DNA from: Candidatus Zixiibacteriota bacterium
GTDB lineage: Bacteria > Zixibacteria > MSB-5A5 > DSPP01
Length of the DNA stretch: 64,000 bases
NCBI GenBank assembly: GCA_022614805.1
Contig: JAKEHY010000025.1
Coordinates: 1 to 64,000 of the forward strand
Reading direction: 5' to 3'
Under the pieces are notes generated by a model. The model did not search any database, had not been told where the DNA came from, and saw only the letters and a list, made by a program, of their open reading frames with translations. The stretch's first letter is position 1; every line of letters starts with the position of its first letter. A program made the translations under genes and the position numbers. Shown here piece after piece: positions 18,925 through 54,360 of this stretch.

Positions 18925-19317
18925 TTATTTTTTTCCTACCTGTATGTGAATGTGCGGAAACCCCTCTCCCCGGTCGTTGGCCAGAATGGCCCAGCCGGGG
19001 AGCTCGTCCCACCAGGTTTCAAAATAGTTCCACAGCGCTTCGATTTCCTCCGGCCTTAAATCCCGCGAGCGGAGGTCAATCGCGCGGCAGGGGGTGTCCA
19101 GATGGGCGCTGGGGCGGACGCGCCCGGCCCAGGCGAAAAATTGGGGATAAAGTTCCTTTTGTTCCTCTTCCGTGCGCCAAACAGAGGTGACCAAAAGTTC
19201 CCGCCCGAATTTTTGCTGAAAGAAAAAGTCCAGCTCGGCCGCGACGGCCCGCAGGCGCGGGTCGGTGGCGTTAAGGTTGTAGAATTGGCTGCGCAAGGTG
19301 TCGTGTTTGAATTGCAT
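18925..19317 (-). CDS. M15-like peptidase (phage endolysin-type)
   Basis: A 130-aa single-domain protein with the M15/hedgehog-type zinc signature: SAHLDTPCRAIDLRSRD (an SxH..D pattern, about residues 75-91) and the late HIHIQV (about 121-126), which supply the metal ligands. It probably cleaves peptidoglycan peptides. There is no signal peptide, as for many phage endolysins. It is the last gene of the minus-strand phage head module, where a lysis enzyme is expected. Length fits stand-alone phage M15 endolysins. Host cell-wall remodelling is the alternative. Confidence 0.75.
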   Translation of the reverse strand: MQFKHDTLRSQFYNLNATDPRLRAVAAELDFFFQQKFGRELLVTSVWRTEEEQKELYPQFFAWAGRVRPSAHLDTPCRAIDLRSRDLRPEEIEALWNYFETWWDELPGWAILANDRGEGFPHIHIQVGKK

Positions 19318-19385
19318 AGTCTCCCTTTCAAGGTTGACCCCACCCCTACCCCTCCTTTTAGGGGAAGAGAATTGTTTTGCCCTAT

Positions 19386-19413
19386 GTAGGGGTTTGATTA
19401 ATCAAACCCCTCC
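19386..19413. repeat. 28-bp phage-block palindrome, copy 1
   Basis: Arms GTAGGGGTTTGATT and AATCAAACCCCTCC, a near-perfect palindrome. It is followed by a GGGCGAA..TTCGCCC element. Confidence 0.9.
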
Positions 19414-19473
19414 GGGCGAATCTTGTGTTCGCCCCCAAAGGGCAGACACACCGGTCTGCCCCTACAAGGGCAA

Positions 19474-20505
19474 TTACCAGGTAAACTGCCAGTTGGATTG
19501 ATTCGGGACGGCCAGCGTGCGTTTGGCGATGGGGGTGGCGGAGAGGTAAATGGTGAATTCGTATTTCGTGGTTGACGGCGTCAAACTCGAATTCGGATAC
19601 AAATCGAGATACCAGTAGCCGGAGGAATTGGTGGAAGCCGCCTTGAGATAGGGCGAGATTACGATGGAACCGGCCTTCAAGGGGGAGGTTTTAATCTCCG
19701 CCGTGACGGTTACCCCCAAAAGCGAGTCCGCCGAAAGGCCGAAAACCCAGCCATAGACCCGGCAGAGGGATGGGCTGGATGGGGTTCCGGGGTCGAACAA
19801 CGTGCCGGAGTAGTTTTTCGAGGTTGCACCCGACACAATCAGTGTTTCCGGAGCGGTAAAAATATACCCCGGCTTGAACAGCCGGACGAAGTAGTAACCG
19901 GAGTTCAAATTGAATTTGATGACGCCATTCGCATCGGTATTCCCGATGACCTGGGTGGCCAGCTGGGTGGAAGAATCGACTACCTGCACCTGTACGCCGG
20001 CGATGGGAACGGAACCCTGCTTCACGTTGACGGTGACCGGATTGGAGCCGACACCGAGCGTCAAAACCTGCGCAATCGTATCGGAGGAGGCGACGTTCAC
20101 CTCCGGGTAGGCCGAAGTGACGGAATAGGTGAACCAGCCTCCCTCATCAAAATTATGGGAAGCCCGCCCGCCGTTTTTCCAGATTAAAACCCGGACAGCG
20201 TAGCCGCCGGTCGAACCATCCGTTTTGGAAGCCCGAAAGGCGCGGCGGAAATTCCCCGGCCAGATTCTGTCGGTTGAGAAAGCGACGAAGGTCGATTCGA
20301 AAAGACTTCCCTGATAGAAGCGCCAGTAGGCAATGGAGTCGCCGTCCGTCTCTTTCAGCCCGAGCGAGTCGTGGAAGTTGCCATAAAGATAAAGCGTGTC
20401 CCATTTGACGCCGCTGGAGTTGCGGAACTGGCCCCATAAATCGGCGCGGGCGGAAGTGGACAAACCAGTTAAAATCGCAAGCACAAAAAGAATTTTTCTG
20501 AACAT
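19474..20505 (-). CDS. Secreted protein with carboxypeptidase-regulatory-like domains
   Basis: A 343-aa protein with signal peptide (MFRKILFVLAILTGLSTSAR-A). Residues about 140-225 form a transthyretin-like fold typical of carboxypeptidase-regulatory domains (VNVKQGSVPIAGVQVQVVD, GVIKFNLNSGYYFVRLFKPG). A second Ig-like unit runs to the C-terminus (VYGWVFGLSADSLLGVTVTA). It lies inside the phage-type module on the same strand. A signal peptide is unusual for a virion protein, so it may be a cargo or surface-modifying gene. It has no dockerin and no sorting tail. Confidence 0.7.
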   Translation of the reverse strand: MFRKILFVLAILTGLSTSARADLWGQFRNSSGVKWDTLYLYGNFHDSLGLKETDGDSIAYWRFYQGSLFESTFVAFSTDRIWPGNFRRAFRASKTDGSTGGYAVRVLIWKNGGRASHNFDEGGWFTYSVTSAYPEVNVASSDTIAQVLTLGVGSNPVTVNVKQGSVPIAGVQVQVVDSSTQLATQVIGNTDANGVIKFNLNSGYYFVRLFKPGYIFTAPETLIVSGATSKNYSGTLFDPGTPSSPSLCRVYGWVFGLSADSLLGVTVTAEIKTSPLKAGSIVISPYLKAASTNSSGYWYLDLYPNSSLTPSTTKYEFTIYLSATPIAKRTLAVPNQSNWQFTW

Positions 20506-20523
20506 AGTTCTCCTTTGAAAAGC

Positions 20524-20604
20524 CCGACGCTGAAGCGTCGGCTACCAATCCGGGCCAGACCCAAAATGGTAGCCGCAATATGGTAGCCGCGACTTCAGTC
20601 GCGG
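20524..20604. repeat. REP pair with CG-rich stem variants
   Basis: A reversed element (CCGACGCT/AGCGTCGG, 20524-20545), a bare GTAGCCGCAATA half near 20569, and a forward element (CCGCGACT/AGTCGCGG, 20583-20604). Confidence 0.8.
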
Positions 20605-20617
20605 GTCTTCTCCCGTT

Positions 20618-21208
20618 TCACTTTTTCAACAGCCGGTTGCGCCTCGGGGAGGCCCCGCCCGAGGCCGGGGTGTAATAAACCGTGACCCGCACGTGGTCGA
20701 CGTTGATTTGATTGTTGCCCGTTTCCTCGGAGGTGTATTCCATCCAGACCCGGAAGTTGGCGTTGAAAAACTCCGCGGCCGACCAGCTCCGGCCCCACGT
20801 ATCGTTGGCGGTACAGCCGGCCGGGAAACAATAGTAGGCATCCGTTGTGCCGGTCACATCGTTCGTTTTGACGGCCGTAAAGCTGGTGCCCCCGTTCCAG
20901 GACAGGGCGCAACTGACCGTGACGGGCAGCCCGCCCGTGCCGGAACGGGCCATCTCCCACTCGACTAAAATCCCGTTAATCGTGCCGCTGATGCCGGAAA
21001 AATTGAAATCCCAGCAGGCCATCGTGTCGCCGACCGTTCCCTCGACGGCGTCGGCATCGTTGGAGGAAAAAACGTTGGCCGGGCTGGTGAACTGCCCGAC
21101 CGCCGTTGTCGGATCTTTCGGGCCGGTGTCGTCCGCCCGCGCAAGCGGCGCGTGCAAGGCCAGACAGAAAAGCACCCATCCCAGGCCGCACAGGCTAACT
21201 TTTTTCAT
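20618..21208 (-). CDS. Secreted hypothetical protein in phage-type module
   Basis: A 196-aa protein with signal peptide MKKVSLCGLGWVLFCLALHA..ARA. The mature part looks like one beta-sandwich (TMACWDFNFSGISGTINGIL, FRVWMEYTSEETG, HVRVTVYYTPASGG) ending with a basic tail RRNRLLKK. The start ATG (21206-21208) follows AGGAGG and overlaps the end of the upstream small gene by 14 bp, implying coupling. The fold resembles carbohydrate-binding or DNRLRE-like sandwiches (weak). Function unknown. Confidence 0.65.
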   Translation of the reverse strand: MKKVSLCGLGWVLFCLALHAPLARADDTGPKDPTTAVGQFTSPANVFSSNDADAVEGTVGDTMACWDFNFSGISGTINGILVEWEMARSGTGGLPVTVSCALSWNGGTSFTAVKTNDVTGTTDAYYCFPAGCTANDTWGRSWSAAEFFNANFRVWMEYTSEETGNNQINVDHVRVTVYYTPASGGASPRRNRLLKK

Positions 21209-21455
21209 CGCCGGGGACCTCCTTCGGCTGTTCCACGGATTTTCCGGCCCGCTCGAGCATTTCCAAAAAAGGCCGGAGAATCTCATCCTTGGAAGTTTCG
21301 TTCCGGAAAAGTTTGTGTTTCAACTCGATGGTTTTCAAGGCGTCGGCGGCTTTCAGCTCGAGGCTGCCTTTTTCCACCATTTCCAGGATTTTTTCGAGGA
21401 GGATTTCAAGATAGGCCAGGTCATCGGCCAGTTCCTTCGGTTTTTGGTTTTGCAT
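21195..21455 (-). CDS. Small helical phage-module protein
   Basis: An 86-aa, almost entirely helical, charged protein (ADDLAYLEILLEKILEMVEK; ALKTIELKHKLF). The ALKTIELKHKLF segment is reminiscent of helices in small terminase subunits, but no HTH can be demonstrated. It is translationally overlapped with the next gene. There is no obvious ribosome site. Function unassigned. Confidence 0.5.
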   Translation of the reverse strand: MQNQKPKELADDLAYLEILLEKILEMVEKGSLELKAADALKTIELKHKLFRNETSKDEILRPFLEMLERAGKSVEQPKEVPGDEKS

Positions 21456-21535
21456 AATTTAAAACACCTCACCCTTTGTCCCTCTCCATAGGATGGAGAG
21501 GGAAACGGGCAGCCACGGAGGGCTGCCCCCTACGT

Positions 21536-21904
21536 TTATCCCATTTCGACAATCAGCAAATCGACAAAGGCGTTGTCAGCTCCGGCGGTTTTGGCCAGGC
21601 GGAAGAGCTCGTCCGATTCGCCGCCGACGACGATGGCGCCAATGGCCGATTTCGGCAGAACCACCACTTTCGGATTTTTCAGTTTCTGCGGCAGTTTGTT
21701 GCCGCGGAAATCGGTCAGGTTGGCATAAAAGAGGACTTGCTCGACGCCCCCCAGAACGGCGGTTTCGAAAATTATCCGTTTGGTCGAGGCCGTGACCTCC
21801 GAGCGGAGAAGCAAAAGCTCCGCCGCCCCCAACGTGCCGTAAACGGCGACGCCGGGGACGGCCCAGATGCGTTTCGATTTGAGATAGTTCAAGGTTTGCG
21901 ACAT
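21536..21904 (-). CDS. Phage-module hypothetical protein
   Basis: A 122-aa protein without a signal peptide, with alternating hydrophobic strands (IWAVPGVAVYGTLGAAELLL, PKVVVLPKSAIGAIVVGG). The start follows GGAGGATAACGA. It lies in line with capsid genes and is probably a small virion or completion protein (by position). No family recognised. Confidence 0.6.
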   Translation of the reverse strand: MSQTLNYLKSKRIWAVPGVAVYGTLGAAELLLLRSEVTASTKRIIFETAVLGGVEQVLFYANLTDFRGNKLPQKLKNPKVVVLPKSAIGAIVVGGESDELFRLAKTAGADNAFVDLLIVEMG

Positions 21905-21916
21905 TCGTTATCCTCC

Positions 21917-21944
21917 GTAGGGGTTTGATTAATCAAACCCCTAC
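21917..21944. repeat. 28-bp phage-block palindrome, copy 2
   Basis: A perfect palindrome with arms GTAGGGGTTTGATT and AATCAAACCCCTAC, between two phage-module genes. Confidence 0.95.
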
Positions 21945-21967
21945 AGGGCAACCACGGAGGGCTGCCC

Positions 21968-22789
21968 CTACGGTTTTCCCGGCAGCGTCAACGGTTTCAA
22001 GCAGCCCGGTTTTTTGGCGAAGGGGGCCAGAAGTCCCTGCGCCCGCTTGCGATAGAAATTGGACATAATCGCCCAGGAGCGGGACAACTGGTGCGAGGGG
22101 CTGCCCGCCTGCATCGATTCCAACGATTTCACCTGTGCTAAAATCGAGACCGCCAGATAGGTGGCGCCGGCGGAAAGGCCCGGGTCGGAGGAATCGAGAT
22201 GGGCCGGGTCGATGAGCAAAACGACCTGCGCTTCCGCTTCCGCCACGGCGTTTTCGATTACCTCCTGCCCCAGAAAGGCCGGGTCCAGTTTGAAATCGGC
22301 GTAAACCGTCTGGCCGTCTTCGATGATGCCGGTTGCCAGCCGCGTGATTTCCCCTTTGCCGTAGTCAATTTTGTAGTCCGTTCCGCGCGCGTAAATTTTG
22401 AACGGCACATACCAGACCACCACGGTCGCATCGGAAGTCAAAGCCCCGCCCACGAGGCGGCGGATTTTTCCGGCCGGGTAATCGACGGCAAAATCCACCT
22501 GCTCCACGTACACCGTGCCGAGGGAAGAATCGGAGGCGCAGGCGACCGATTCTGGTATCAAATCGGTCGAAGTGAGCGGAACGCCCGCCAACGTGAGCAG
22601 AACCGTTTCCTGGTTCGGCGTTCCATCCTCTTTTCCTTTGACCTTGTCCGAACCGGCAAGAACAGGCGCCCCCGGCAGCTTGACCGGAGAAGTTCCGGCC
22701 AGCTTCAAGGGAAAGTTTTCCACCGTCTGGCCGACGGCGGAGTGTTCGATTAAATGTTTGTGAACGAGCTGCGCATTGGTAAAAGGCAT
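21968..22789 (-). CDS. Phage-module structural protein (head-tail connector candidate)
   Basis: A 273-aa protein without a signal peptide. A short motif is repeated: VDFAVDYPAGKIRRLVGG (about residues 97-114) and TDYKIDYGKGEITRLATG (about 136-153), each a beta-hairpin as in phage structural modules. The C-terminal 90 residues are helical and end with basic and proline-rich residues. It follows the propeller gene by 1 bp, so it is co-translated with it. A head-tail or neck role is inferred only from position. Confidence 0.6.
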   Translation of the reverse strand: MPFTNAQLVHKHLIEHSAVGQTVENFPLKLAGTSPVKLPGAPVLAGSDKVKGKEDGTPNQETVLLTLAGVPLTSTDLIPESVACASDSSLGTVYVEQVDFAVDYPAGKIRRLVGGALTSDATVVVWYVPFKIYARGTDYKIDYGKGEITRLATGIIEDGQTVYADFKLDPAFLGQEVIENAVAEAEAQVVLLIDPAHLDSSDPGLSAGATYLAVSILAQVKSLESMQAGSPSHQLSRSWAIMSNFYRKRAQGLLAPFAKKPGCLKPLTLPGKP

Positions 22790-22790
22790 A

Positions 22791-24215: not shown

Positions 24216-24234
24216 TGTTTAATCCATTTTCTTT

Positions 24235-24288
24235 GTAGGGGTGAACCTTCAGGTTCACCCTCGGGCGAATCTGAAGATTCGCCCCTGC
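24235..24288. repeat. Paired GTAGGGG-type palindromes
   Basis: GTAGGGGTGAACC/GGTTCACCC (24235-24260) and GGGCGAATC/GATTCGCCC (24263-24285) stand back to back. Confidence 0.8.
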
Positions 24289-24446
24289 GTTATTGGACGC
24301 TGAAAAATCACCCCCTGACCCGCCCCGATTGCTCGGGGCGGGTCGTCCCCCTTGGTTAAGGGGGACAGGCAGGAGGTGTGGGGACGTGTGGCGGGATGCC
24401 CACGCGAGTCTTTCGTTGCGTCAGGAGTCACTCCCGACCCAAAACC

Positions 24447-24474
24447 GTAGGGGTTTGATTAATCAAACCCCTAC
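24447..24474. repeat. 28-bp phage-block palindrome, copy 3
   Basis: A perfect palindrome with arms GTAGGGGTTTGATT and AATCAAACCCCTAC, 30 bp downstream of the capsid gene. Confidence 0.95.
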
Positions 24475-24504
24475 ACGGGCGACCACAAGGGTTGCCCCTA
24501 CCGA

Positions 24505-25602
24505 TTACCAGCTAACGTCCAGAATCAAGCCCGCTTCTTTGACCACCTTGGCATAGGCGACCGATTCGGAAATCACCGCCTCTTCGAGCCTTTGCTCGAT
24601 GACCTTGTCGAACTCCACCATCAGGGGCTGCGAGACGACCTCTTCGATGGCGAAGCGGGCATCCAAACCGATGAGCAAATCGGCCGGGGCGTCGTCGGAG
24701 CGAATCAGCTTGGTGCCCAAAGGCGTAACCAGCTCGCCCGTTTTCTGGAAGCGGAAGCCGACCATCGGGTCCTTGAACTCCGAGAGGGTCAGAATCGTTT
24801 TCAGCTTGTCCTTCGACACTACCAAGGTGTTCATCTCGAAGGGATAAAACTCGTTCCAGAAACTGACCAAATCGGTGTAGGCCAAAGTCCCCGTCACCGC
24901 CGTGTTGATGACCGTGGCGGGATTCGAATTGCCGTCGCCGTTGATTATCGTGTTCACCAAGAGGCCGATTTTGTCCGCCGAAAGCCGGAAGCCGACGTAC
25001 CAGAGCAGCACCTTGAACTGCGCCATCGAGCGGTAGCGCAAAGCCCGATATGAAATGGAAAGCGCCAGCCCGTATTCCGGCACGGTGATGGTGTGCTGCT
25101 GTTCGGTGACTAACATCTCCGGCACCGCGGCCCCTTCGCCGACCGGCTTTAGGGAGAGTTTGGTCTGCGCCGGCGTCACGTTGATGTAAAAAGGCGTGTA
25201 GCGCGAGGCGAAAACCGGCGTCGAAGTCGCAATCAGCGCTTCGAGGCCGGGCCGCATCCGCTGTCCGCGCAAAATTTCCCGGCGGATGAATTCCGGCATC
25301 AAAACCGGCGCGGCCGCGAAAAACTCCTCCACCGTGGAGGCGGCCTTCCCCTCCGTTTTCAACCCGCGCACGACCAGCTGGCGCTCGAAGGCGTCCAGGG
25401 CCGAACCGACCGGCGTGGGGTCGTAGCGTTCGGTTTCGAGCAACTCCGACAGGGTCAGCCCCTGATTTTGCGCTTCGAGATACGTTTCCCGCGAGATTTC
25501 CAGCTGCGCCGCGCGGGTCAAATCGGCCGTCCCCCTTCTCGGCTTCTCGGCCAAAGCGAGCGCCATCGCACTCGGTTCCTCCAGCAATTTTTCCAGTTCC
25601 AT
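24505..25602 (-). CDS. Major capsid protein, HK97-type
   Basis: A 365-aa phage capsid protein. Features typical of this capsid group are an N-terminal helical arm (residues 1-80), a P-domain-like stretch with LSISYRALRYRSMAQFKVLL, then INGDGNSNPATVI, LVSFWNEFYPFEMNTLVVSK, the loop GFRFQKTGELVTPLGTKLI, and a C-terminal VEFDKVIEQRLEEAVISES followed by YAKVVKEAGLILDVSW. It would assemble the procapsid together with the protease at 27 kb and the portal at 51.5 kb. The start has an AAGGAAAATAG leader. The fold call is by sequence pattern. Confidence 0.82.
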   Translation of the reverse strand: MELEKLLEEPSAMALALAEKPRRGTADLTRAAQLEISRETYLEAQNQGLTLSELLETERYDPTPVGSALDAFERQLVVRGLKTEGKAASTVEEFFAAAPVLMPEFIRREILRGQRMRPGLEALIATSTPVFASRYTPFYINVTPAQTKLSLKPVGEGAAVPEMLVTEQQHTITVPEYGLALSISYRALRYRSMAQFKVLLWYVGFRLSADKIGLLVNTIINGDGNSNPATVINTAVTGTLAYTDLVSFWNEFYPFEMNTLVVSKDKLKTILTLSEFKDPMVGFRFQKTGELVTPLGTKLIRSDDAPADLLIGLDARFAIEEVVSQPLMVEFDKVIEQRLEEAVISESVAYAKVVKEAGLILDVSW

Positions 25603-25621
25603 CTATTTTCCTTTCACTTTT

Positions 25622-25762
25622 GTAGGGGTTTGATTAATCAAACCCCCGTCTTCCGGTGGCGCCGAATGGTTTTTGTATTCGGCGTAACGCACATTACAAA
25701 AACCAATGTGCGCCACCGGTAATTGGTATTTTTTGTAGGGGCGAGGGATGCCTCGCCCTTAC
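25622..25762. repeat. 28-bp palindrome copy 4 and neighbouring hairpins
   Basis: 25622-25647 is a palindrome copy (GTAGGGGTTTGATT arm, slightly truncated right end). 25653-25720 forms nested hairpins with CCGGTGGCGC..GCGCCACCGG ends. 25735-25762 is a GTAGGGGCGAGG/CCTCGCCCTTAC palindrome. Confidence 0.75.
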
Positions 25763-25765
25763 AAT

Positions 25766-25787: not shown

Positions 25788-25799
25788 CATCGCCGTTGA

Positions 25800-26222
25800 T
25801 TAGTTCAAGATTAATGTGCAGTCCGTCGTCCCGTTGACGGCGATGACGGTGCCCCGGGCGACGTTGCCGCCGGCCGGGTCGGAAGCCCCCAGGGCCGGCG
25901 CCTGCTTGACCGTTCCTCCGGCTCCGCCCACGACCCGGTTGCCCACCACCGGCGCGGGGGTGGCCAGATTCAAATTGACGATGCCGCCGATTTGCACCGT
26001 GGCCACCCGCTTGCCGCCATCCGCATCGGTGAGCGACAAATCGACTAACTTGCCCAGAAGCACCGCGCCGTCTGTGGCCGGCCCGACCGTGTTGTTGGCG
26101 GTGATCGCGACCGCCTTGCCGACGTCGATATCTTTCAGGTCATCCACACCGGCGGTTTGTTTGATTAAAAAAGTTGCAAAGACGGCCCCCAGACCTTCGA
26201 GGGCCAAATCCCGAACGCCCAT
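25800..26222 (-). CDS. Phage capsid cement/decoration-like protein (DUF2190-like)
   Basis: A 140-aa, glycine- and valine-rich beta protein. The order AVAITANNTVGPATDGAVLL, then ATVQIGGIVNLNLATPAPVV, then NRVVGGAGGTV and a final GTVIAVNGTTDCTLIL fits the capsid cement (DUF2190-like) pattern. It lies directly upstream of the major capsid gene, the usual order. The start follows AAAGGAGAACCA. It probably stabilises the head (inference from family and position). Confidence 0.7.
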   Translation of the reverse strand: MGVRDLALEGLGAVFATFLIKQTAGVDDLKDIDVGKAVAITANNTVGPATDGAVLLGKLVDLSLTDADGGKRVATVQIGGIVNLNLATPAPVVGNRVVGGAGGTVKQAPALGASDPAGGNVARGTVIAVNGTTDCTLILN

Positions 26223-26328: not shown

Positions 26329-26338
26329 AAAAATGGTT

Positions 26339-26584
26339 CTATTTCTGTTGTGATTTGAACCGGACGTCGGCCGCTGGCGAAACGGCTAACGCCGCATCCA
26401 GTTTTTGCTTCAATTTCCTTTTCAGTTCCAGCAATTTTTCGGCGCCAAGACCGTCGAACCCTTCCGTATCTTGTGGCGGGGAGCCGGTGGTGAGAGCCGT
26501 TAGTACGGCGAAAAGGGATTTGACTTCCCGCGCCAGCTCGGCTTTCAAAAGCGTCAGTTCCTTCTCGATTTTATTTTCCGTCAT
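26339..26584 (-). CDS. Small coiled-coil phage-module protein
   Basis: An 81-aa, highly charged, helical protein (TENKIEKELTLLKAELAREV; EKLLELKRKLKQKLDAALAV). Its start overlaps the stop of the preceding gene as ATGA, implying translational coupling. Function unknown; possibly an accessory to the membrane protein encoded just before it, in the manner of two-component holin or XhlA pairs (weak inference). Confidence 0.6.
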   Translation of the reverse strand: MTENKIEKELTLLKAELAREVKSLFAVLTALTTGSPPQDTEGFDGLGAEKLLELKRKLKQKLDAALAVSPAADVRFKSQQK

Positions 26585-26904
26585 CGTTTCCCCGAATTCC
26601 GCTCCAGCTTGGCTTCGATTTTGCTCAAGCGTTCCAAAAGCTCCTCTTTCAGGCGGTAAAAATCATCCTTGGTCATAAAACGTTCGGCCAGTTGCACCTC
26701 GATGGCGGCGATTTTTTTGTCGCTTACCGCCACGGAAGCGGCGTCCGCCTTGGCCGCCAGTTCCAGCTTCAGCCCGGAGACCGTGGCGTAGTAGGCCGTC
26801 AGGATGCCTCCGGCAGTCATTGCAAAGGAGAACAAGAACTTGAGCAAAGTCGCCGCCGTCATCCCCGCCAGGGGACCGGTGCCGTTTTTCTTTTTGGCGT
26901 TCAT
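26581..26904 (-). CDS. Membrane protein with TM and coiled coil (XhlA/holin-like)
   Basis: A 107-aa protein. One TM segment (about residues 18-40, AATLLKFLFSFAMTAGGIL) is followed by a coiled coil (about 48-103; DDFYRLKEELLERLSKIEAK). The layout resembles phage XhlA-type or small holin-like proteins. The start ATG follows AAGGAGGTGTGCAGCG, which belongs to a conserved bipartite leader motif shared with three other sites. It lies in line with other head-module genes. Confidence 0.6.
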   Translation of the reverse strand: MNAKKKNGTGPLAGMTAATLLKFLFSFAMTAGGILTAYYATVSGLKLELAAKADAASVAVSDKKIAAIEVQLAERFMTKDDFYRLKEELLERLSKIEAKLERNSGKR

Positions 26905-27102: not shown

Positions 27103-27813
27103 TTACCGGCCGTAAATCGGATGCAACCGTTTGCGGCGCGACGGAACGTTTTTCCGTTCCGCAGTTTTAGTGGTGAAAAGCTCCTGATTCTGTTCGGACC
27201 TTCCCGCCAACGGCACCGTGATTTTTGTCCCCGGCACGGCGCCGCGATAGACCAAAGATGTTTCCAGAAGTTTGGTCACGTTGCGGTACCAGAAAAAGGC
27301 GGGCGCAAGCGAACCGTTCGGAACCGCATAGCGGCGGAAGGGGATATGCTCGCAGATTCGGATATCCCGACCGCAGACGGAACATTCCGGCAGCTCGAAC
27401 AAAAAGGCCGCCGAAACCTCCTTGTAAATGCCGCCGTCGATATTTTTCAGCAGATTCAGCGCGCCATCCGAATCCGCCAGCCAGTAAAAATGGACCGCAA
27501 GCCAAGTCTCCTCCATTTTCTCAACCAAATCCGCTTTGAAATTGCGGGCGATGGGAAGCTTCTGGTGGTTATGCCCGACCAGAACCGGGCTGCCCTCGGC
27601 CAGCTCCCCCATTTTTGCCAGCTCTTTTTTGTCGAACCGCCCCCCGAAGGAGTTTATCCGGTTGGACGCCAAAAACATCCGCCGGATGAAAACATCCCCT
27701 TCCCCCAAGGGCCGGTTTGGTTGGACCCGGGCGTTTATCAATTGAACCAGTTCCGCCGTTCCCCAGCCTTCGGGGGCGGCGAGCATTGTCTTTTGTTTCG
27801 TCTCGGTTATCAT
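27103..27813 (-). CDS. Phage prohead protease-like protein with zinc-binding motif
   Basis: A 236-aa protein resembling HK97-type prohead maturation proteases. ELAEGSPVLVGHNHQKLPIA carries a candidate catalytic His81, and GIYKEVSAAF a candidate Ser134. CSVCGRDIRICEH (Cys144, Cys147, Cys154, His156) adds a putative zinc site. It would trim the scaffold and capsid during head assembly. The start at 27813 (MITETKQK) is preceded by GAGGGACT inside the conserved leader motif; the longer in-frame start is translated from that motif. It is the first gene of the minus head module. Confidence 0.7.
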   Translation of the reverse strand: MITETKQKTMLAAPEGWGTAELVQLINARVQPNRPLGEGDVFIRRMFLASNRINSFGGRFDKKELAKMGELAEGSPVLVGHNHQKLPIARNFKADLVEKMEETWLAVHFYWLADSDGALNLLKNIDGGIYKEVSAAFLFELPECSVCGRDIRICEHIPFRRYAVPNGSLAPAFFWYRNVTKLLETSLVYRGAVPGTKITVPLAGRSEQNQELFTTKTAERKNVPSRRKRLHPIYGR

Positions 27814-28029: not shown

Positions 28030-28092
28030 CCCCTCTATTAAATAGCGCCGGTTGGGACAACTCGCTCGAAAGTTGTAGCGATTTTGTCAACC
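28030..28092 (-). promoter_or_regulatory. Bipartite phage leader motif, copy 3 (no gene attached)
   Basis: On minus: TTCGAGCGAGTTGTCC (28070-28055), 9 nt, then the palindrome CTATTTAATAG (28045-28035). A TTGACA box lies just upstream (28089-28084). No start codon follows closely; it marks the edge of the left phage block. Confidence 0.55.
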
Positions 28093-46577: not shown

Positions 46578-47228
46578 CTACCCTTTCCGTTTCGGTTTGG
46601 AAGGAACCGACGGTTTGGCCGGCTTTTTATCCGGTGCGGCCGCCCCGCCATCCCCCAGGCGAACGACGGCCGGATAAATGGGCGCCCCTTGCGGGGTAAC
46701 GAATTCGAGGTTGGGCTGCATGCTGACGGTGGCCACCGAACGGATGGAAATCGGACGGGATGCGGGCGCCCGGAAAAACATCTTCATCACCAGCCCGTTC
46801 CCCGGGCTCATGGAAGGGGCCCCCGCCGAGAGAGCCGAAAAAAGCCCCACGACGACCGTATTGGCCACCTTGGTGGATTTGTTGACCAGCTTGGTCTGAA
46901 AGAAATCGATGCGCGTCCCGGCCAGGCTGATGGAATCAAACTTCATTAAGGAATCGTGGCGGATGGGGAAGGTGAAGGCGAAAAGGGATTCGTCGTTGAA
47001 AACGTGGAAGTGCAAAACCCACTCCCCCTCCTTGGCCCCTTTTTGCAGGTCCAGAAACAAAGTATCAGCGGCTCCCAGGGAATCCCGCACGGCGGGGGGC
47101 AAAAACGGCACCTCGCCGGGCTTGAGCTGGGTTAATAGGGTTAAAGGGTCTTTTTTCTCTTTCTCTTGAGCAAAAACAAAAACGAAAGCCCCCACCAAAA
47201 GAATTACTGCCAAACCAATCTTGCGCAT
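46578..47228 (-). CDS. Secreted cohesin-like beta-sandwich protein
   Basis: A 216-aa protein with signal peptide (MRKIGLAVILLVGAFVFVFA-Q). The body resembles cohesin-like beta-sandwiches: FHVFNDESLFAFTFPIRHD, KFDSISLAGTRIDFFQTKLV, VGLFSALSAGAPSMSPGNGL, KMFFRAPASR. It ends with a Lys/Pro-rich tail (DKKPAKPSVPSKPKRKG) and has no dockerin. The ATG follows AGGAGG. If truly cohesin-like it could be a partner for the dockerin proteins of the window, which would have to be tested. Confidence 0.65.
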   Translation of the reverse strand: MRKIGLAVILLVGAFVFVFAQEKEKKDPLTLLTQLKPGEVPFLPPAVRDSLGAADTLFLDLQKGAKEGEWVLHFHVFNDESLFAFTFPIRHDSLMKFDSISLAGTRIDFFQTKLVNKSTKVANTVVVGLFSALSAGAPSMSPGNGLVMKMFFRAPASRPISIRSVATVSMQPNLEFVTPQGAPIYPAVVRLGDGGAAAPDKKPAKPSVPSKPKRKG

Positions 47229-47310
47229 TTTTCCTCCTAAGCCCATATTTTGTTATACCCTTGCAATATCGCCCCCAATCCGCCTTTGTCAAGGCAAAAT
47301 CAGACGTAAT

Positions 47311-47500: not shown

Positions 47501-49012
47501 TCAGCAGGGAAAAGGCGCCTCGTTGAACGTCGCTGCAATCAGCGATACAATATCTGCGCCGGAGAGGTTCCCGGTGCAGTTTACGTCCGCGTAGCACAGG
47601 TTGCAGTCCCCGCCAATCGTTCCGGTTCCATTCTCGTTGAACGTGCAATTTATCAGCAATACAATATCGGCGCCGCTCAAAGTCCCCGAGCCGTTCATAT
47701 CCCCCTTCACCGCCGCACAAAGGCCATAAACAAAAGCCGAACCGGCCTTGGCCGCTCCGCCCGGGTTGGTGGAAGGAGCGCCAATAATGAGGTCAGCTTT
47801 GCCGTCCCCGTTGACGTCTCCGGCCGAGGCCACGGAGAAACCTAAACTGTCGCCGACGGCGGCGCCGTTTATCTGACCGAGCAGGGAGCCATCGGCACCG
47901 GAATGGACGTAGGCGGAGCCGGCGCCGCTAAGCCCGCCTGCGCCGGCGCTAGGAGCGCCGATGATGAAGTCGGCCTTGCCATCCCCGTTGACATCCCCGG
48001 CGGAAGCGACGGAGAAGCCCAGATAGTCACCGGCAGCGACGCCGTTTTTCAGGTAGAGCAGGGAGCCATCGGCGCCGGAATAGACGTAGGCGGTGCCGGC
48101 GTCGCTAAGCAAGCCCACGTCCATAAAAGGAGCGCCGATGATGAAGTCCGCCTTGCCATCCCCGTTGACGTCTCCGGCGGAGGCGGCGGAGAAGCCCAGA
48201 AGGTCTCCGGCGGCGGCGCCGTGTTTCTGGTAGAGTAGGGAACCGTCGGCGCCGGAATAGACGTAGGCGGTGCCGGCGTCGTCTTGCCGCAAAGGGTCGT
48301 TCCTAGGAGTTCCGATGATGAAATCAGCTTTACCATCCCCGTTGTCGTCCCCGGCGGAGGCCACGGAGAAACCTAAGCTGTCGCCGATGGTGCCCCCGTT
48401 TTTCTCATATAGCAGGGAGCCATCGGCGCCGGAATAGACGTAGGCGGAGCCGGCGCCGCTAAACCCGGCGGTGGGGTCGGCGCCAGGAGCACCGATGATA
48501 AAATCAGCCCTGCCATCCCCGTTGACGTCTCCGGCGGAGGCGACGGAGAAGCCCAGAAGGTCTTCAACGGCGCCGCCTTTCTGGTAGAGCGGAAGGACAC
48601 CGCCGCCTGAATAAACAAAGGCGGAGCCGTTGACTTGGCCGGAGAACGGGGCACCGACGATGTAATCGTCGTTGCCATCGCCGTTGACGTCTCCAGCCCC
48701 GGCGACAGACCAGCCCAGAAGGAATAAGTTGCCGTCGCCCTTTCTCGTATGGAGCACAGCTCCGCTGGCGCCGGAATAAACGACGGCCAAACCTGTGTTC
48801 AACTCGCCCTCCAGTTCGAAAGCAGGAAGACCGATGATGAAGTCGGCTTTGCCATCGCCGTTCACGTCCCCGGCCGAAGCCACCGACCAGCCCAGAAAGT
48901 CTTGGGCTGCGGCGCCGTCTTTCTGGTAATGAAGATTAAATTGACCGAAAGTAACTGCCGGCAAAATCAAAACTAAAAGAAATACCGCCAGAACTCCTGC
49001 CCGAATTCTCAT
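47501..49012 (-). CDS. FG-GAP/integrin-alpha-like repeat protein with dockerin
   Basis: A 503-aa secreted protein with signal peptide (MRIRAGVLAVFLLVLILPAVTFG). Seven FG-GAP repeats each carry a calcium loop of the type DVNGDGKADFIIG and an AYVYSGADGSLLY strand; together they would form a seven-bladed propeller like integrin alpha. The C-terminal dockerin-like pair (DMNGSGTLSGADIVLLINC, DVNCTGNLSGADIVSLI) ends APFPC. The start follows GGAGGTATT. The first 36 bp and the whole dockerin are nearly the same in the next gene, indicating duplication. Probably a surface adhesion protein. Confidence 0.88.
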   Translation of the reverse strand: MRIRAGVLAVFLLVLILPAVTFGQFNLHYQKDGAAAQDFLGWSVASAGDVNGDGKADFIIGLPAFELEGELNTGLAVVYSGASGAVLHTRKGDGNLFLLGWSVAGAGDVNGDGNDDYIVGAPFSGQVNGSAFVYSGGGVLPLYQKGGAVEDLLGFSVASAGDVNGDGRADFIIGAPGADPTAGFSGAGSAYVYSGADGSLLYEKNGGTIGDSLGFSVASAGDDNGDGKADFIIGTPRNDPLRQDDAGTAYVYSGADGSLLYQKHGAAAGDLLGFSAASAGDVNGDGKADFIIGAPFMDVGLLSDAGTAYVYSGADGSLLYLKNGVAAGDYLGFSVASAGDVNGDGKADFIIGAPSAGAGGLSGAGSAYVHSGADGSLLGQINGAAVGDSLGFSVASAGDVNGDGKADLIIGAPSTNPGGAAKAGSAFVYGLCAAVKGDMNGSGTLSGADIVLLINCTFNENGTGTIGGDCNLCYADVNCTGNLSGADIVSLIAATFNEAPFPC

Positions 49013-49065
49013 AATACCTCCCTAATGTTTTAAACGCTGCCTGCTCAACTCCGGTCCTTTTTCGT

Positions 49066-50637
49066 TCAGCAGGGGAAAGGCGCCTCGTTGAACGTCGCCG
49101 CAATCAGCGATACAATGTCTGCGCCGGAAAGATTCCCGGTGCAGTTTACGTCCGCATAGCACAGGTTGCAGTCGCCGCCGACCGTTCCCGTTCCATTCTC
49201 GTTGAACGTGCAATTTATCAGCAAGACAATATCGGCGCCGCTCAAAGTCCCCGAGCCGTTCAGGTCTCCCTTCACCGCCGCGCAGGAGGAAGTGATGGTC
49301 AAAAGGTTGTTGCCCGTGCGGCTTTGGCCGTCTGGATTGGTAATGGTCACACTTTGGCTTCCGAGGGAAGCCCCCACGGTGGAGATGTTGAGCGTCACCG
49401 ATGTCGGGCTGTTGAAGGTGACGCTGTTCACGGTAACGCCGCCGCTGACCGTAGCGCTGATATGATTTGGGAAACCGGGCCCGCCAATATCTGCTCCCGG
49501 GTCGAAAAACTCCGAGCCGGAGACGGAACTCCCGGAAATGGTCACGACCACCGAAGCTTGCCCCGGCGCCACGCTGGGCGGCGCAGCCGTTGCCGGGGTT
49601 GCCGGCGGCGGCGCCAGAAGCTGAATGACCCGAACGCCCCAGGAACTGGTCGCATTGCAATATTCCTGAAAAGTCCACATCGTCTGGTCATCGGCCGGAT
49701 CGACGACTGTCTGCGAATAATCCCCCCAGCGTTGCGGCGGACTAGAATAGCTGTAAATCGTGCTGCTCGATTGGGTCAGCGTATGCGCCTGGGTGGTTCC
49801 TAAAGCGTCGGTTCGCAGCCTCCCGGCCGCGGCAATGCTGGCAAATCCCGTAGTGTTATTCAAGCTGGCCCGGCTGGAGGCGATAGCCATATGCCCCTGT
49901 CCCGACATCGCCACGGAGGGAATCCAGAAGCCAAAGGGGTTGCTGGCGGCAGGATCGAACAGCGTCCCCAACTGAACCAAAGTTGGACTGGTGGTCAAAT
50001 CCCCTATTTCATACCAGCGGGAACCGTTGCGATTCCCGGCGGCCGAACCGACTCCGCTGCTGTTTACCTCGATGTTATGCGCGGTCCAAAGCGTGCGGGT
50101 CCCGTTGATTTTATTGGTATGAATCGAGGCGGAAAACAGCCGGTCGTCAATTGCGTCGAGCGTGGCCCCGGGGGAGGGTTGAACCTGCTCCATCGGAAAA
50201 GTGGTTATCGGTACGGGGAGAACGATGTTTCCCGAAAGGGTTGGCGTCCCCCCCGGGTTGTTGACCCGCCGTAAAACCAGCTTGCTGAAAACAAAGACAT
50301 CCACCCCTATAAAGTATCCTTCGGTTGCGTTCGGGTCATCATTCTGCACACCTTGAGGGGTAAAAGGGCCGACACTGCCCACAAAGTCAATGAGTCCAGG
50401 GAACGCCGTGACTGTCAGCGAACCGCCTATAAGGTCGGCCTTGTTGATGACAAACGCGGTGGTATTGGTAAAATTGAACGTAACGCCATCAAACACGTTC
50501 ACCCCCACATAAAGGGCATTCCTGTCAATGCCTAAGGTGGGATAATCAGCAAAATCGGCCGGGTCGCCTTGGAAGCTGAAGAAAGTAAAACTGGAGGTGT
50601 TGGTGATGGTTGAACTGGAACTGACGGCAATCAACAC
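49066..50637 (-). CDS. Dockerin surface protein, 3' part of a frameshifted gene
   Basis: This 523-codon frame is the downstream part of a gene whose 5' part is at 50670-51257. In the same frame, codons upstream read AYPRIRYDRLSGRWFVVCIN and continue into LIAVSSSSTITNTSSFTFFS, so translation should enter from upstream and not start here. The content is a beta-rich surface domain, an IPT/TIG-like domain near 365-450 (PPSVAPGQASVVVTISGSSV; SVTFNSPTSVTLNIST) and a dockerin-like pair ending APFPC. One base is missing in a G8 tract at 50727-50734. The dockerin is nearly identical to that of the FG-GAP gene next to it. Confidence 0.8.
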   Translation of the reverse strand: MLIAVSSSSTITNTSSFTFFSFQGDPADFADYPTLGIDRNALYVGVNVFDGVTFNFTNTTAFVINKADLIGGSLTVTAFPGLIDFVGSVGPFTPQGVQNDDPNATEGYFIGVDVFVFSKLVLRRVNNPGGTPTLSGNIVLPVPITTFPMEQVQPSPGATLDAIDDRLFSASIHTNKINGTRTLWTAHNIEVNSSGVGSAAGNRNGSRWYEIGDLTTSPTLVQLGTLFDPAASNPFGFWIPSVAMSGQGHMAIASSRASLNNTTGFASIAAAGRLRTDALGTTQAHTLTQSSSTIYSYSSPPQRWGDYSQTVVDPADDQTMWTFQEYCNATSSWGVRVIQLLAPPPATPATAAPPSVAPGQASVVVTISGSSVSGSEFFDPGADIGGPGFPNHISATVSGGVTVNSVTFNSPTSVTLNISTVGASLGSQSVTITNPDGQSRTGNNLLTITSSCAAVKGDLNGSGTLSGADIVLLINCTFNENGTGTVGGDCNLCYADVNCTGNLSGADIVSLIAATFNEAPFPC

Positions 50638-50669
50638 ATCGTTGGAGGGGCTGCTAACATTAATACAAA

Positions 50670-51257
50670 CTACGAACCACCGCCCGGAGAGCCGGTCGTA
50701 GCGAATACGCGGATAAGCCGTGCCGGCCCCCCCCTTACGGATACAAAAAAAGTCTCCAGCGAGGTGTTAAGTCCGCCAAGCACTCCGCTTTTGCTAAAAA
50801 CCTTGATGCGGCCATTGGTGGCGACGAGAATCTGCGTCGGACTGACGTCTCCGGCCGGATCCGGCGGGACAAAGCCGGATTCGGTGCTCTGGATTGCCAG
50901 AAAACTGGTCCCCACGGTTTGCGGATTGAGTGCTTGAGGTAAGGATGACAAGGCGGTTTTTTCAACCGGCGCCGGCCATTGGGCGGCCTCCAGCGCATTC
51001 GGATTCCGTTGTTTGTTTCTTAGAGAAATCAAAGGGCTTGGCCTGCTCCGTACAGCGGCAATTGCGGCAAGGCTGCCCGCTTTTTGCTCCCGTGCCATAA
51101 TCTCCGCAACCGTTTCGCTCTTTCCTCTCTCACCGGTCCAAGGAACACCCGGAGTTAAAGCCGGATTTCCGAAAACAAGTGAGTTGGAGAAAAAAAACGC
51201 AACCGGCAAAATCAAAGCCGCACGAACTAACGCCAGAACTCCTGCCCGAATTCTCAT
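50670..51257 (-). CDS. Dockerin surface protein, 5' part of a frameshifted gene
   Basis: A 195-codon frame starting MRIRAGVLALVRAALILPVA, a signal peptide sharing its first nine residues with the neighbouring FG-GAP gene. It continues with QTVGTSFLAIQSTESGFVPP and ILVATNGRIKVFSKSGVLGG, a conserved surface-protein region. After TSLETFFVSVRGG the frame runs through eight G (50727-50734) and then into 20 nonsense codons. Adding one G joins it to the downstream frame. It is either phase-off by slipped-strand mispairing, a pseudogene, or an assembly error. The ribosome site GGGAGGTTTT precedes the ATG. Confidence 0.8.
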   Translation of the reverse strand: MRIRAGVLALVRAALILPVAFFFSNSLVFGNPALTPGVPWTGERGKSETVAEIMAREQKAGSLAAIAAVRSRPSPLISLRNKQRNPNALEAAQWPAPVEKTALSSLPQALNPQTVGTSFLAIQSTESGFVPPDPAGDVSPTQILVATNGRIKVFSKSGVLGGLNTSLETFFVSVRGGPARLIRVFATTGSPGGGS

Positions 51258-51344
51258 AAAACCTCCCGTTATGTTTTTAACCCTGCACTATTAGTATAGC
51301 CTCCCTTTTTTCCTGACGCAAGCAAAATCAATACAAAACCGATA

Positions 51345-51415
51345 TGAATTCCGCCAAAATTGGCAGCTTCTTCGAGCGAGTTGTCCAAAAGCCCCCTATT
51401 TAGTAGAGGGACGTG
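51345..51415 (+). promoter_or_regulatory. Bipartite phage leader motif, copy 4
   Basis: On plus: GCCAAAATTGGC dyad (51352-51363), TTCGAGCGAGTTGTCC (51371-51386), 9 nt, then CTATTTAGTAG (51396-51406) and AGGGACGTGTGTGCACG. It faces right, toward the portal gene about 120 bp away, opposite to copies 1-3. Confidence 0.6.
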
Positions 51416-51533
51416 TGTGCACGAATCACTAATCACCCCTCTCTAATCTCTGTTTCATTTCCCTCCCCCTTCCCGCATCGGGAAGGGGGATTAAGGGGGT
51501 TAGGTCAAATGCCCACCCAAAATGGAGGTAAAA

Positions 51534-52817
51534 ATGCTCAAATTCTTAACAAGGCTTTTCCCCGGTCACAAAAACGCAAAAAAATTCCCCGGTTTTGAGG
51601 CTTCGCTAAAGCTTCACAGGCCGAAAAAACTGTATCCAAAAAGACCGCAGGCAATTTCGGAACCGAATGCCGACGTTTTTCGCTTTCAAACCTGGGACCG
51701 GCCGACGCGGTTGGAGTTCTACCGATTCATAAGGGATAATGTTCCGATTTTGAACTCCGTCATTTGGACTTGGGCAAGATTATGCGCCGCGCCAAATCGA
51801 TTGGAAATCACTGGAGAAACTGCAGCGGAACAAAAAAAGAAGGCGCAAAAAATTCTGCGGGGGCTGGATGAGCGGCTGTACCAATATCCCTTCGCCCGTT
51901 TCGGCGGCACGGATGCGGTTCTGGCCCAGTTTTTCAATTCGCTCTTTACGCTGGGAGCGGTGGCCGGTGAAATCGTTTTGAACCCCAGCCGCACGAAAAT
52001 CGAGAAATTTTTCTTCATCGACCCGGCCACGCTCGGTTTTGTGTGGGATAAATCAGGGAACTGTCAAATATATCAGCAAACCGAAAACGGGGAAAAACTC
52101 TTGAACCCCTACTCGATTTACTACGCCGGGCTGGATGCCGAGATGGCCAACCTGTATGGCCGCTCTATTCTCGGTTCGATTCCTTTCGTCGCCAAAGTCG
52201 AGCAGTCGCTCGTGGCGGATATGCAGAAAACGATGCACAACGCCGGCTACAACCGGATTCACGTCAAAATCAAACCGCCCGAGAAACGGGAGCTGGAAAC
52301 GGATGAAACCTATCTCGAACGCGCGAACAAATATTTCGACGACACGGTGAGAGCGGTGAAGGATTTGGCGCCGGAGGACAACCCGGTGACCTGGAACGAC
52401 GTGGAGATTGAATATATCGGCCCCAAAGGCCCCCTTTCCTCCTCCGAGTCATGGTATATCACCCACAAGGCGATGGTGGAGGACATTTGCGCCGGCACGC
52501 ATCTCGACCCTTTTCTGCTCGGCTATTCTTACGGCACGACCCAGACCTGGGCCCGCTTCAAATACGAACTGGTCTTGCGGCAGGTCGTCTCCGTGCAAAG
52601 AATCGCCAAACGCTTTATGGAATGGATTTACAATTTGGAATTGGCGTTGAACGGCATCGACAATCTGAAAGCCGAGTTCCATTTCGACAACAGAAAGAGT
52701 TTCGACATTCTTGAAAATGCGAAGACCGAGCAGATGAAGTTAGATAATTTGATTAAAAAACAGACCGCCGGATACATCACTTTCGACCAAGCCAAATCCC
52801 AGGCGCAAGGGTCGTAG
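51534..52817 (+). CDS. Phage portal protein
   Basis: A 427-aa portal-type protein. Characteristic segments are the early PTRLEFYRFIRDNVPILNSV, FFFIDPATLGFVWDKSGNCQ, SIYYAGLDAEMANLYGRSIL, the helical SYGTTQTWARFKYELVLRQV and the C-terminal MKLDNLIKKQTAGYITFDQA. It would form the ring through which DNA enters the capsid. The ATG at 51534 is preferred over 51522 because GGAGG lies 5 nt upstream of it. Its partner capsid and protease genes are 23 kb away on the opposite strand. Confidence 0.85.
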   Translation: MLKFLTRLFPGHKNAKKFPGFEASLKLHRPKKLYPKRPQAISEPNADVFRFQTWDRPTRLEFYRFIRDNVPILNSVIWTWARLCAAPNRLEITGETAAEQKKKAQKILRGLDERLYQYPFARFGGTDAVLAQFFNSLFTLGAVAGEIVLNPSRTKIEKFFFIDPATLGFVWDKSGNCQIYQQTENGEKLLNPYSIYYAGLDAEMANLYGRSILGSIPFVAKVEQSLVADMQKTMHNAGYNRIHVKIKPPEKRELETDETYLERANKYFDDTVRAVKDLAPEDNPVTWNDVEIEYIGPKGPLSSSESWYITHKAMVEDICAGTHLDPFLLGYSYGTTQTWARFKYELVLRQVVSVQRIAKRFMEWIYNLELALNGIDNLKAEFHFDNRKSFDILENAKTEQMKLDNLIKKQTAGYITFDQAKSQAQGS

Positions 52818-52840
52818 GGGCAGGCCGCCTTGCCTGCCCA

Positions 52841-52927
52841 GTAGGGGTTTGATTAATCAAACCCCTACACAAAACCGTAGGGGCACGGCATGCCGTGCCC
52901 CTACGGGCGAACGCCGTTCGCCCCTAC
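52841..52927. repeat. 28-bp palindrome copy 6 plus two GTAGGGG-type palindromes
   Basis: 52841-52868 is a perfect 28-bp palindrome identical to those in the left phage block. 52877-52904 has GTAGGGGCACGGCA arms. 52905-52927 has GGGCGAAC/GTTCGCCCCTAC arms. They lie between portal and terminase. Confidence 0.92.
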
Positions 52928-53019
52928 GGTTTTATTTTTTCCCTCCCCTTGAGGGGAGGCTTGCCCGAGTCGCCCGTACGGACGGCCAGGGGATTAAGGG
53001 TGGGGTCAATTTTTTTCAA

Positions 53020-54360
53020 ATGCAGCAAAATGTTCAAAGGTTTCTCGATGAATCCCTCTGGCTCAAGGCCGCCGCCGACCCGGCCTGTTTCGCAGAAACA
53101 ATCCTGGGCGCCGGACTGCATCTTGGCCAAAAAAAATGGCTGACAAACGCCAATAAAAATGAAAACCTGCTCCACGCCGGCAATCGCTGGGGGAAGGGAG
53201 AGGTGCAGGCGTTAAAAATTCTGCACCTTATGCTGTTTCGACTCGCGGGGGGCAAACCCGTCAAGGAAAATTACCGCCTGGCGAACGTCAGCATCACCCA
53301 GAACCAGTCCGAAATCGTCTTTCGGAAGATTCTCCGCTGGATAAAGGAAGCCAAATGGCTGGAAATTCTGGTGAAGGAAGAAAAGCGCACCCCTTTCCCA
53401 ACCATCCGATTGGCCACCGGCGCCGAAATCTCGGCCCGGACGACCCAGAAGCGTGGGGAATATTTGTTGGGGGAGGGATACGATTTCATAAACTTTGACG
53501 AGGCCGCCTTCGACCCGGCGGGGGAATACGTGGCCGACAAAGTGCTGGCAATGCGGCTGGCGGACCGCGGCGGGATGCTGGATTTCACTTCGACGCCGAA
53601 AGGGCGCAACTGGTTCTATCAGCGCGCAGAAAAATTGAAGGTGAATCCACGTTGGGGATACGTCCAGGGAGGCGACACACGCGAAAACCGTTTCGTCAAC
53701 CAGGAATATCTTGCCGAACGGATAAGAAGCTGGCCGGAGAATCTGGCGCGGCAGAACGTGGGGGGCGAGTTTGTGGAGGATGCGGAGACGCTTCTTTTGG
53801 AGGAGGAAATCGAGCGGGCGATTGCGGCTTCCACCGGCCTGTCTTTGCGGCAGGCCGGGGGGCGCTACATCGCGGGGTGGGATTTGGGGCGGAAGGTGAG
53901 CTTTACCACGGGGGCGATTTTGGACATTTCCGAAAAACCGTATCAGTTAGTCGCCTATGAACGCTTTCGCCACCGCAGTTGGGAGCAGGTTTTTCAAACC
54001 ATCCGCAAGCGGAAAAAAGAGTATGGCGGGCCGGTGATGATTGACGCGACGGGTTTGGGGGACGTGGTTTTGGACGAACTGAAGGACATCAAGCCGACTG
54101 GATTTACCTTCAACAAAAAAACCAAAAACGAACTTTTATTGAATTTCAAACGGGCGCACGAGAAAGGGGAAATCGCCTATCCGTATCTGGAGCAATGGGA
54201 GGATGCCGAGACGCTTTGGAGTTTGCGGGCGGAGCTGGAAAGCTTGAATTGGGAGGACAACCAGGAGGCCGATTTTTCTTTCGCCCTCGCTTTGGCCCTC
54301 TGGCTCTTACGAGTCAGAGAAAGTATCGTCCTCCCGCAGGGAAGGTGGGATAAGGTTTGA
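53020..54360 (+). CDS. Phage terminase large subunit
   Basis: A 446-aa DNA-packaging ATPase/nuclease. The Walker A variant is HAGNRWGKGE (Lys59), Walker B is YDFINFDEAAF (Asp160, Glu161), and a coupling-type FTSTPKGRNW follows. The RNase H-like nuclease has AGWDLGRK (Asp288), VMIDATGLGD (Asp342) and EADFSFALAL (Asp418). All key residues are present, so it looks functional. I chose ATG 53020; an upstream in-frame start lies inside the palindrome at 52841-52868. The order portal then terminase is the reverse of the usual one. Confidence 0.88.
   Translation: MQQNVQRFLDESLWLKAAADPACFAETILGAGLHLGQKKWLTNANKNENLLHAGNRWGKGEVQALKILHLMLFRLAGGKPVKENYRLANVSITQNQSEIVFRKILRWIKEAKWLEILVKEEKRTPFPTIRLATGAEISARTTQKRGEYLLGEGYDFINFDEAAFDPAGEYVADKVLAMRLADRGGMLDFTSTPKGRNWFYQRAEKLKVNPRWGYVQGGDTRENRFVNQEYLAERIRSWPENLARQNVGGEFVEDAETLLLEEEIERAIAASTGLSLRQAGGRYIAGWDLGRKVSFTTGAILDISEKPYQLVAYERFRHRSWEQVFQTIRKRKKEYGGPVMIDATGLGDVVLDELKDIKPTGFTFNKKTKNELLLNFKRAHEKGEIAYPYLEQWEDAETLWSLRAELESLNWEDNQEADFSFALALALWLLRVRESIVLPQGRWDKV

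Follow-up and report, generated by a model that had tools for sequence, protein, structure and literature searches.

Here, we describe two separated arms of phage head and packaging genes in a 64,000-nucleotide stretch of DNA (the window; positions 1 to 64,000 of contig JAKEHY010000025.1, assembly GCA_022614805.1) from a Candidatus Zixiibacteriota bacterium, whose genome (G000; 2.56 Mb, 93% complete) carries both arms on one contig of 69 kb. The left arm (18.9-27.8 kb, minus strand) encodes a maturation protease, coiled-coil proteins, a decoration protein, a capsid of the HK97 type, four further structural proteins that are conserved, and possibly an endolysin; the right arm (51.5-54.4 kb, plus strand) encodes a portal followed by the large terminase subunit (TerL). 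We consider it likely that the arms are halves of a phage-derived, host-domesticated and vertically inherited head-and-packaging system of the gene transfer agent (GTA) type, spread throughout the phylum Zixibacteria. The system is probably comparable to FpGTA of Faecalibacterium, and short-tailed or tailless. An earlier note on this DNA had named a GTA-like remnant among its possibilities; the GTA-like part is supported, and the system is a maintained one, not a remnant.

The capsid, cement, portal and TerL positions given earlier agree with matches to PHROGs and Pfam families (Table 1), and for the protease named with them, 19 aligned sequences show a conserved GH...K-x-x-S pattern that supports the assignment. 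Comparison with relatives moved the protease start to the ATG at 27813 and places the likely TerL start at 53020; the first ATG of the portal (51522) falls inside the ribosome-binding site, and its likely start is 51534. TerL retains the Walker A lysine, the Walker B DE and three nuclease aspartates, and its profile matches solved phage TerL structures (4zni, 5m1f, 5tge) with E about 1e-8. The capsid, portal and F3 profiles matched no PDB sequence. Because a portal stands beside a TerL with intact motor and nuclease residues, DNA is predicted to be packaged into a protease-matured, decorated capsid. The decoration protein shares 59-76% identity with those of Zixibacteria outside the genus.

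When 98 relatives were searched at the protein level, 85 yielded the capsid and 86 the portal, across 19 families and in one copy each, barring a few fragmented matches. Of 133 Zixibacteria genomes searched with a capsid profile, 112 have a single copy, and the capsid is present in 74 of 79 good genomes (completeness of 90% or more, contamination of 5% or less). Scanning genome contigs yielded 117 relatives; nearly all of the 80 listed are titled Zixibacteria, apart from a few whose titles are generic or odd. Open reading frames (ORFs) clustered into families (F1, F2 and so on) across 95 loci follow a conserved order: portal, TerL, protease, F7, coil protein, decoration, capsid, F1, F3, F6, F10, variable protein, F5, F13. 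The left arm of the window has this same order from protease to F5 and ends with the endolysin-like gene. Host flanks are common to many families, with F16-F11-F18 upstream and F12, lipoyl synthase (LipA, F20, named by eye) and F15 downstream.

The head genes are maintained under purifying selection. Between G000 and G001, an independently assembled genome of a sister species in the same genus, ratios of nonsynonymous to synonymous substitution (dN/dS; Nei-Gojobori, approximate as dS is near or above 1) are 0.039 for the capsid, 0.079 for the portal, 0.124 for TerL, 0.094 for F1, 0.087 for F3, 0.096 for the endolysin-like gene and 0.043 for F5, and 0.13-0.39 for five neighbouring host genes. 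F7 (0.21) and the variable protein (0.215, the highest among module genes) are less constrained. The head genes are also vertically inherited. Trees were built from 17 genomes for rpoB, the capsid arm (capsid, decoration, F3) and the portal arm (portal, TerL), with G001 standing in for G000, whose assembly lacks rpoB. The rpoB and head-gene trees have 8 of 14 splits in common (8-9 of 14 across the three trees), no conflict has both branches at bootstrap 95 or above, and the distance matrices are correlated (Mantel r 0.86-0.88, and 0.87-0.88 for rpoB against the head genes; p 1e-4). Third-position GC of the arm genes (0.71) falls inside the host-gene range (mean 0.65).

The split was analysed in the 76 genomes in which capsid and portal were both located. 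The module is contiguous and collinear in 46 of these (capsid-portal gap 4-11 kb, median 5.4 kb) and split on one contig in 8 (separation 13 kb to 1.29 Mb); in the other 22 capsid and portal lie on different contigs, some from fragmentation alone. Families f9, f11, f16 and f18 each contain both contiguous and split states, which makes four or more independent separations probable. In every one of the ten split genomes inspected (G000, G003, G012, G032, G036, G048, G049, G059, G065, G097) the break falls between TerL and the protease, which suggests that the module consists of two transcription units. The repeated parting of portal-TerL and the capsid block amounts to a natural experiment, and it suggests that selection no longer maintains the module as a viral genome fit for packaging. 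A phage reliant on packaging its own genome could hardly afford a distance of up to 1.3 Mb between its capsid gene and those for portal and terminase; a GTA can. The roughly 35 kb span of the two arms, taken earlier for a headful, is a coincidence of the rearrangement site, as capsid and portal in relatives usually lie about 5 kb, or up to 1.3 Mb, apart. Relatives with an intact contiguous prophage had been proposed as refutation of the two-arm layout; 46 relatives are indeed contiguous, but their contiguous module is itself no prophage.

In G000 the split is a chromosomal rearrangement, recurring in several other lineages, and the separation is common to both genus members. Misassembly at the joins, a worry raised with the first description, is unlikely because the independent G001 assembly repeats the junctions; its contigs hold the same capsid-arm/glycosyltransferase junction (28 kb) and the same TerL-to-aquaporin order (54-59 kb), with the two arms on different contigs, and an assembly artefact was rejected. 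The opposite directions of the arms and the host-like genes between them were both borne out, the latter by their annotated types: the intervening 24 kb or so holds glycosyltransferase-like, FkbM methyltransferase, desaturase, AhpC/TSA redoxin and outer-membrane-type genes. A packaging element carrying these envelope genes as cargo, another earlier proposal, was rejected because conservation of the arms does not extend to the genes between them: none of these genes separates the arms in the 46 contiguous relatives, and the other split genomes examined have no common gene set there. Since F16 is still found upstream of the portal arm in G000, it is this arm that has retained the ancestral surroundings, with the capsid arm displaced relative to it. 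G001 homologues of 853-4437 sit near the aquaporin gene (58748-59494 in the window), so a block of about 5-59 kb with both arms inside may be inverted between G000 and G001. On either side of the region lie series of paralogous secreted proteins with dockerin-like repeats at their ends (9757-17708 and 47501-50637, minus strand), and such families may promote the rearrangements.

A palindrome and a leader motif shared by the arms had been called private to them. Both are over-represented in the arms and neither is private. G000 contains 27 exact copies of the palindrome (39 with up to 2 mismatches), G001 and G002 contain none, and the leader core has 11 copies in G000 with at most 1 mismatch. 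The arms, about 0.5% of the genome, hold 6 of the 27 and 4 of the 11, an enrichment with p about 1e-7 to 1e-9 under a uniform model that intergenic clustering makes too generous. A private regulatory palindrome was thus rejected in favour of a dispersed, species-specific element resembling repetitive extragenic palindromes (REP), and the leader was rejected as a GTA-only promoter on the same counts. Minus-strand leader copies begin at 28071 (upstream of the left arm), 27857 (protease) and 26956 (F7). Sites of the motifs outside the arms, inspected for tail genes, adjoin ordinary host genes or contig ends. The palindrome begins with GTAG and a Y1-type (REP-associated-like) transposase lies at 8710-9162, which suggests an origin from REP and REP-associated tyrosine transposases (REP/RAYT). 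The arm gaps of G001 carry other repeated hairpins, and a diverged, partly alignable leader version, recognised by eye only, is present there upstream of portal, protease and F7.

Table 1. Features of the two arms and of related sites in the window (positions are those of the window).
Feature	Position	Strand	Basis and remarks
Endolysin-like protein, M15-peptidase-like, 130 aa	18925-19317	-	phrog 'endolysin' E 0.019; low confidence
Dispersed palindrome, core GGGGTTTGATTAATCAAACCCC	19388-19411		More copies at 21917, 24447, 25625, 26254, 52841
Conserved F5 protein, 343 aa	19474-20505	-	CarboxypepD_reg-like domain; N terminus signal-peptide-like by eye; surface or fibre candidate
Variable secreted-type protein	20618-21286	-	Different protein at same module place in different lineages
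Small coiled-coil-type protein F10, 86 aa	21195-21455	-	F10 profile E 7e-11; family in 41 loci
Conserved F6 protein, 122 aa, all-beta	21536-21904	-	AlphaFold2 (AF2) pLDDT 87; family in 51 loci
Conserved F3 protein, 273 aa	21968-22789	-	AF2 pLDDT 87; neck/adaptor candidate
Conserved F1 protein, 474 aa	22791-24215	-	BNR/propeller-like, weak BNR_2 match; receptor-binding or tail-tip candidate
Major capsid protein	24505-25602	-	phrog_3922 E 6e-62; PF25209
Capsid decoration (cement) protein	25800-26222	-	phrog_4588 E 2e-7
Small coiled-coil protein, scaffold candidate (function inferred)	26339-26584	-	Position of relatives' second F2 element
F7, 107 aa, one transmembrane segment and coiled coil	26581-26904	-	Weak phrog matches; holin- or spanin-like candidate
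Prohead maturation protease	27103-27813	-	phrog_16951 E 3e-16; conserved GH, K-x-x-S, Cys/His cluster
Host gene F16	46578-47246	-	Profile E 2e-46; in 18 loci, mostly beside portal
Leader motif CGAGCGAGTTGTCC-N-TATTTARTAGAGGG, upstream of portal	51370-51410	+	
Portal protein	51534-52817	+	phrog_3753 E 4e-34
Large terminase TerL	53020-54360	+	phrog_2 E 3e-29; PF03237

Among the conserved structural families, F1 directly follows the capsid in 80 of 95 loci and may be a propeller by its sequence; a phage homologue of F1 was sought and none found. The F3 model has beta-hairpin repeats within a helical frame, and F3 matches phrog_18315 (E 6e-8) and phrog_807 and, weakly by Foldseek, phage baseplate, tail and neck proteins. 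For F6, Foldseek returned nothing but weak matches (best E 0.2), and F6 bears a faint resemblance to H-type lectins and tailspike/fibre domains. F5 occupies the same place in 53 of 95 loci, with a PF13620 match (E 3e-4) below the cut-off, and the F7 family was found in 49 loci. The G001 orthologue of the endolysin-like gene matches PF08291 (E 0.08), and the module-end position is the same in 5 loci (F26). About 1 kb downstream of TerL lies a tRNA with a long extra segment (55399-55499, minus strand; Rfam 52.5 bits, missed by ARAGORN).

Sheath, tape-measure and baseplate-J families had no match in G000 and 14 relatives, with control genomes positive (PF10145 was the only tape-measure family searched), which agrees with the earlier observation that no tail gene is seen. 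A diverged or short tail is still compatible with these negatives. As was also observed earlier, no integrase or repressor is seen in the window. Scans of the 2.9 million viral contigs of IMG/VR with capsid and portal gave a sole match, IMGVR_UViG_3300027896_005586, which carries the Zixibacteria cluster itself and is probably host DNA that was catalogued as viral. The gut contig MT835508 carries a related capsid and portal (35.7% and 25.2% identity, respectively); it was rejected as the closest phage since its 41 kb stretch proved to be a piece of bacterial chromosome containing a small head cassette. Deposited as 'Bacteriophage sp.', MT835508.1 carries ribosomal proteins and SecY-like and Rnf-like genes (by eye); its cassette (16112-22215) comprises a TerL-size ORF, a portal, a protease, a capsid related to the Zixibacteria family and three small ORFs, and is possibly another FpGTA-like system.

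The alternative that survives best, which we judge unlikely, is a domesticated capsid with a role other than transfer, such as storage, DNA repair, nutrient use, kin killing by lysis or supply of extracellular DNA. Such a role would suit the lack of a proven tail or delivery apparatus after the sheath, tape-measure and baseplate-J searches, and the secreted appearance of F5 and the variable protein; the portal and the intact TerL argue instead for DNA packaging, and the conserved F1, F3 and F6 resemble, weakly, parts of a neck or tip. A phage satellite or capsid-forming phage-inducible chromosomal island (PICI), making its own heads and borrowing tails from helper phages, would explain why genes for head, portal and terminase were found and genes for a long tail were not. 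We regard this as very improbable: integrase, regulator and primase genes are seen neither in the module nor beside it, the chromosomal neighbourhood is fixed, the module is near-universal in the phylum with vertical trees and is physically split in several lineages, and one helper phage serving a whole phylum is implausible. The integrase, regulators, replication module, mobility and patchy occurrence of such elements are not found here.

The disrupted prophage of the earlier note, or a decaying one, with its head genes parted by host insertions or rearrangement, is scarcely credible. It could draw on the split in G000 and on a relative, G081, whose capsid gene is in two pieces, but purifying selection and vertical, single-copy inheritance across the phylum contradict it, with dN/dS of 0.04-0.12 between sister species at high dS, the same genes in 74 of 79 good genomes and a separation common to both genus members. 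Nor does the module have the profile of a temperate prophage (contiguous genome, integrase/repressor, tail genes, patchy distribution): no integrase or repressor is seen in the window, the single copy is near-universal and the module is split. A prophage lineage specific to Zixibacteria and repeatedly re-acquired at one site would share the phage-like gene content, but the single copy per genome, the lack of other phage genes seen nearby, the lack of any match in IMG/VR except the cluster itself and the congruent trees make it extremely unlikely.

For the GTA-like system that we favour, the proposed mechanism is as follows. Both blocks would be expressed in a subset of cells under some condition; the capsid would assemble and be matured by the protease, and TerL would drive fragments of the host chromosome through the portal. 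F1, F3, F6 and F5 would build a neck or short receptor-binding tip, the holin- and endolysin-like proteins might (with low confidence) release the particles by lysis, and recipient cells would take up the DNA. ComEC, which is required for uptake of GTA DNA in Rhodobacter, is encoded in 15 of 15 genomes, a finding that is permissive for DNA delivery only.

Several points weigh against this reading. We infer DNA packaging and transfer from the genes, the assignments of tail or delivery proteins are guesses from weak similarity, no small terminase subunit (TerS) was identified, and ComEC is also common in bacteria that have no GTAs. The capsid was not detected in 21 genomes, most of them incomplete; G035 (98% complete) and G020 (94%) have neither capsid nor portal, so the system is dispensable. 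In the single-contig genome G081 the two pieces of the capsid gene are distant from each other, and G091, also a single-contig genome, has portal, TerL and protease with no capsid detected (loci L052-L054 for both); these exceptions may reflect decay or misassembly. The trees are limited to 17 genomes, and their branches below the bootstrap threshold differ.

Six features have been listed for GTAs (PMC9662315): proteins derived from caudoviricetes; full endogenisation, often at several loci; mostly vertical inheritance, with co-diversification with the host; a genome of their own that is not or cannot be fully packaged; encapsidation of mostly random host DNA; and delivery of that DNA to other cells. 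Three of the six are found here. The capsid, portal, TerL, protease and decoration proteins match phage families; the genes are chromosomal, with the same neighbours across families and a split in several lineages; and inheritance is vertical, by the single copy in 112 of 133 genomes and the rpoB congruence in 17. On incomplete packaging, one headful would probably not hold both blocks in the genomes where these lie up to 1.3 Mb apart. On balance we lean slightly towards the fuller claim that this GTA is among the oldest: phylum-wide, independently domesticated, tailless or short-tailed, built of two separable units, kept since the phylum ancestor and core to gene exchange. If true, phage-derived gene exchange can be a core and ancient trait of a major uncultured lineage, the genes supply a marker set for viromes, where GTA DNA may count as viral or as bacterial contamination, and a further GTA case without recognisable long-tail genes is added. 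A literature search, whose coverage excluded subscription journals and most preprints, found no paper pairing Zixibacteria with a gene transfer agent.

Among known systems, FpGTA (PMC12946183) has two operons about 125 kb apart and particles of about 40 nm that have no identifiable tails and contain about 9 kb of DNA, and it is conserved in all 12 Faecalibacterium genomes that its authors examined. Like the Zixibacteria set, it combines a head-and-packaging operon with a separate chromosomal operon, has holin/endolysin genes and lacks identifiable tails; unlike it, its second operon encodes tail-tip and lysis functions instead of portal-TerL. FpGTA belongs to one genus and its DNA-filled particles have been demonstrated, whereas the Zixibacteria set, compared here by description, is known from its genes. 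RcGTA and the Rhodogtaviriformidae resemble the Zixibacteria set in their domesticated caudoviricete head genes, vertical inheritance and several loci (PMC9662315). The particles of RcGTA bear a tail of 49 nm (PMC9662315), whereas the Zixibacteria set, again compared by description, spans a whole phylum and has no RcGTA-like long non-contractile tail gene detected by the PF10145 tape-measure search of 15 genomes. The TerLs of Thermus and Meiothermus phages share 25-30% identity with the Zixibacteria TerL, a distant similarity, and these are true phages with complete genomes.

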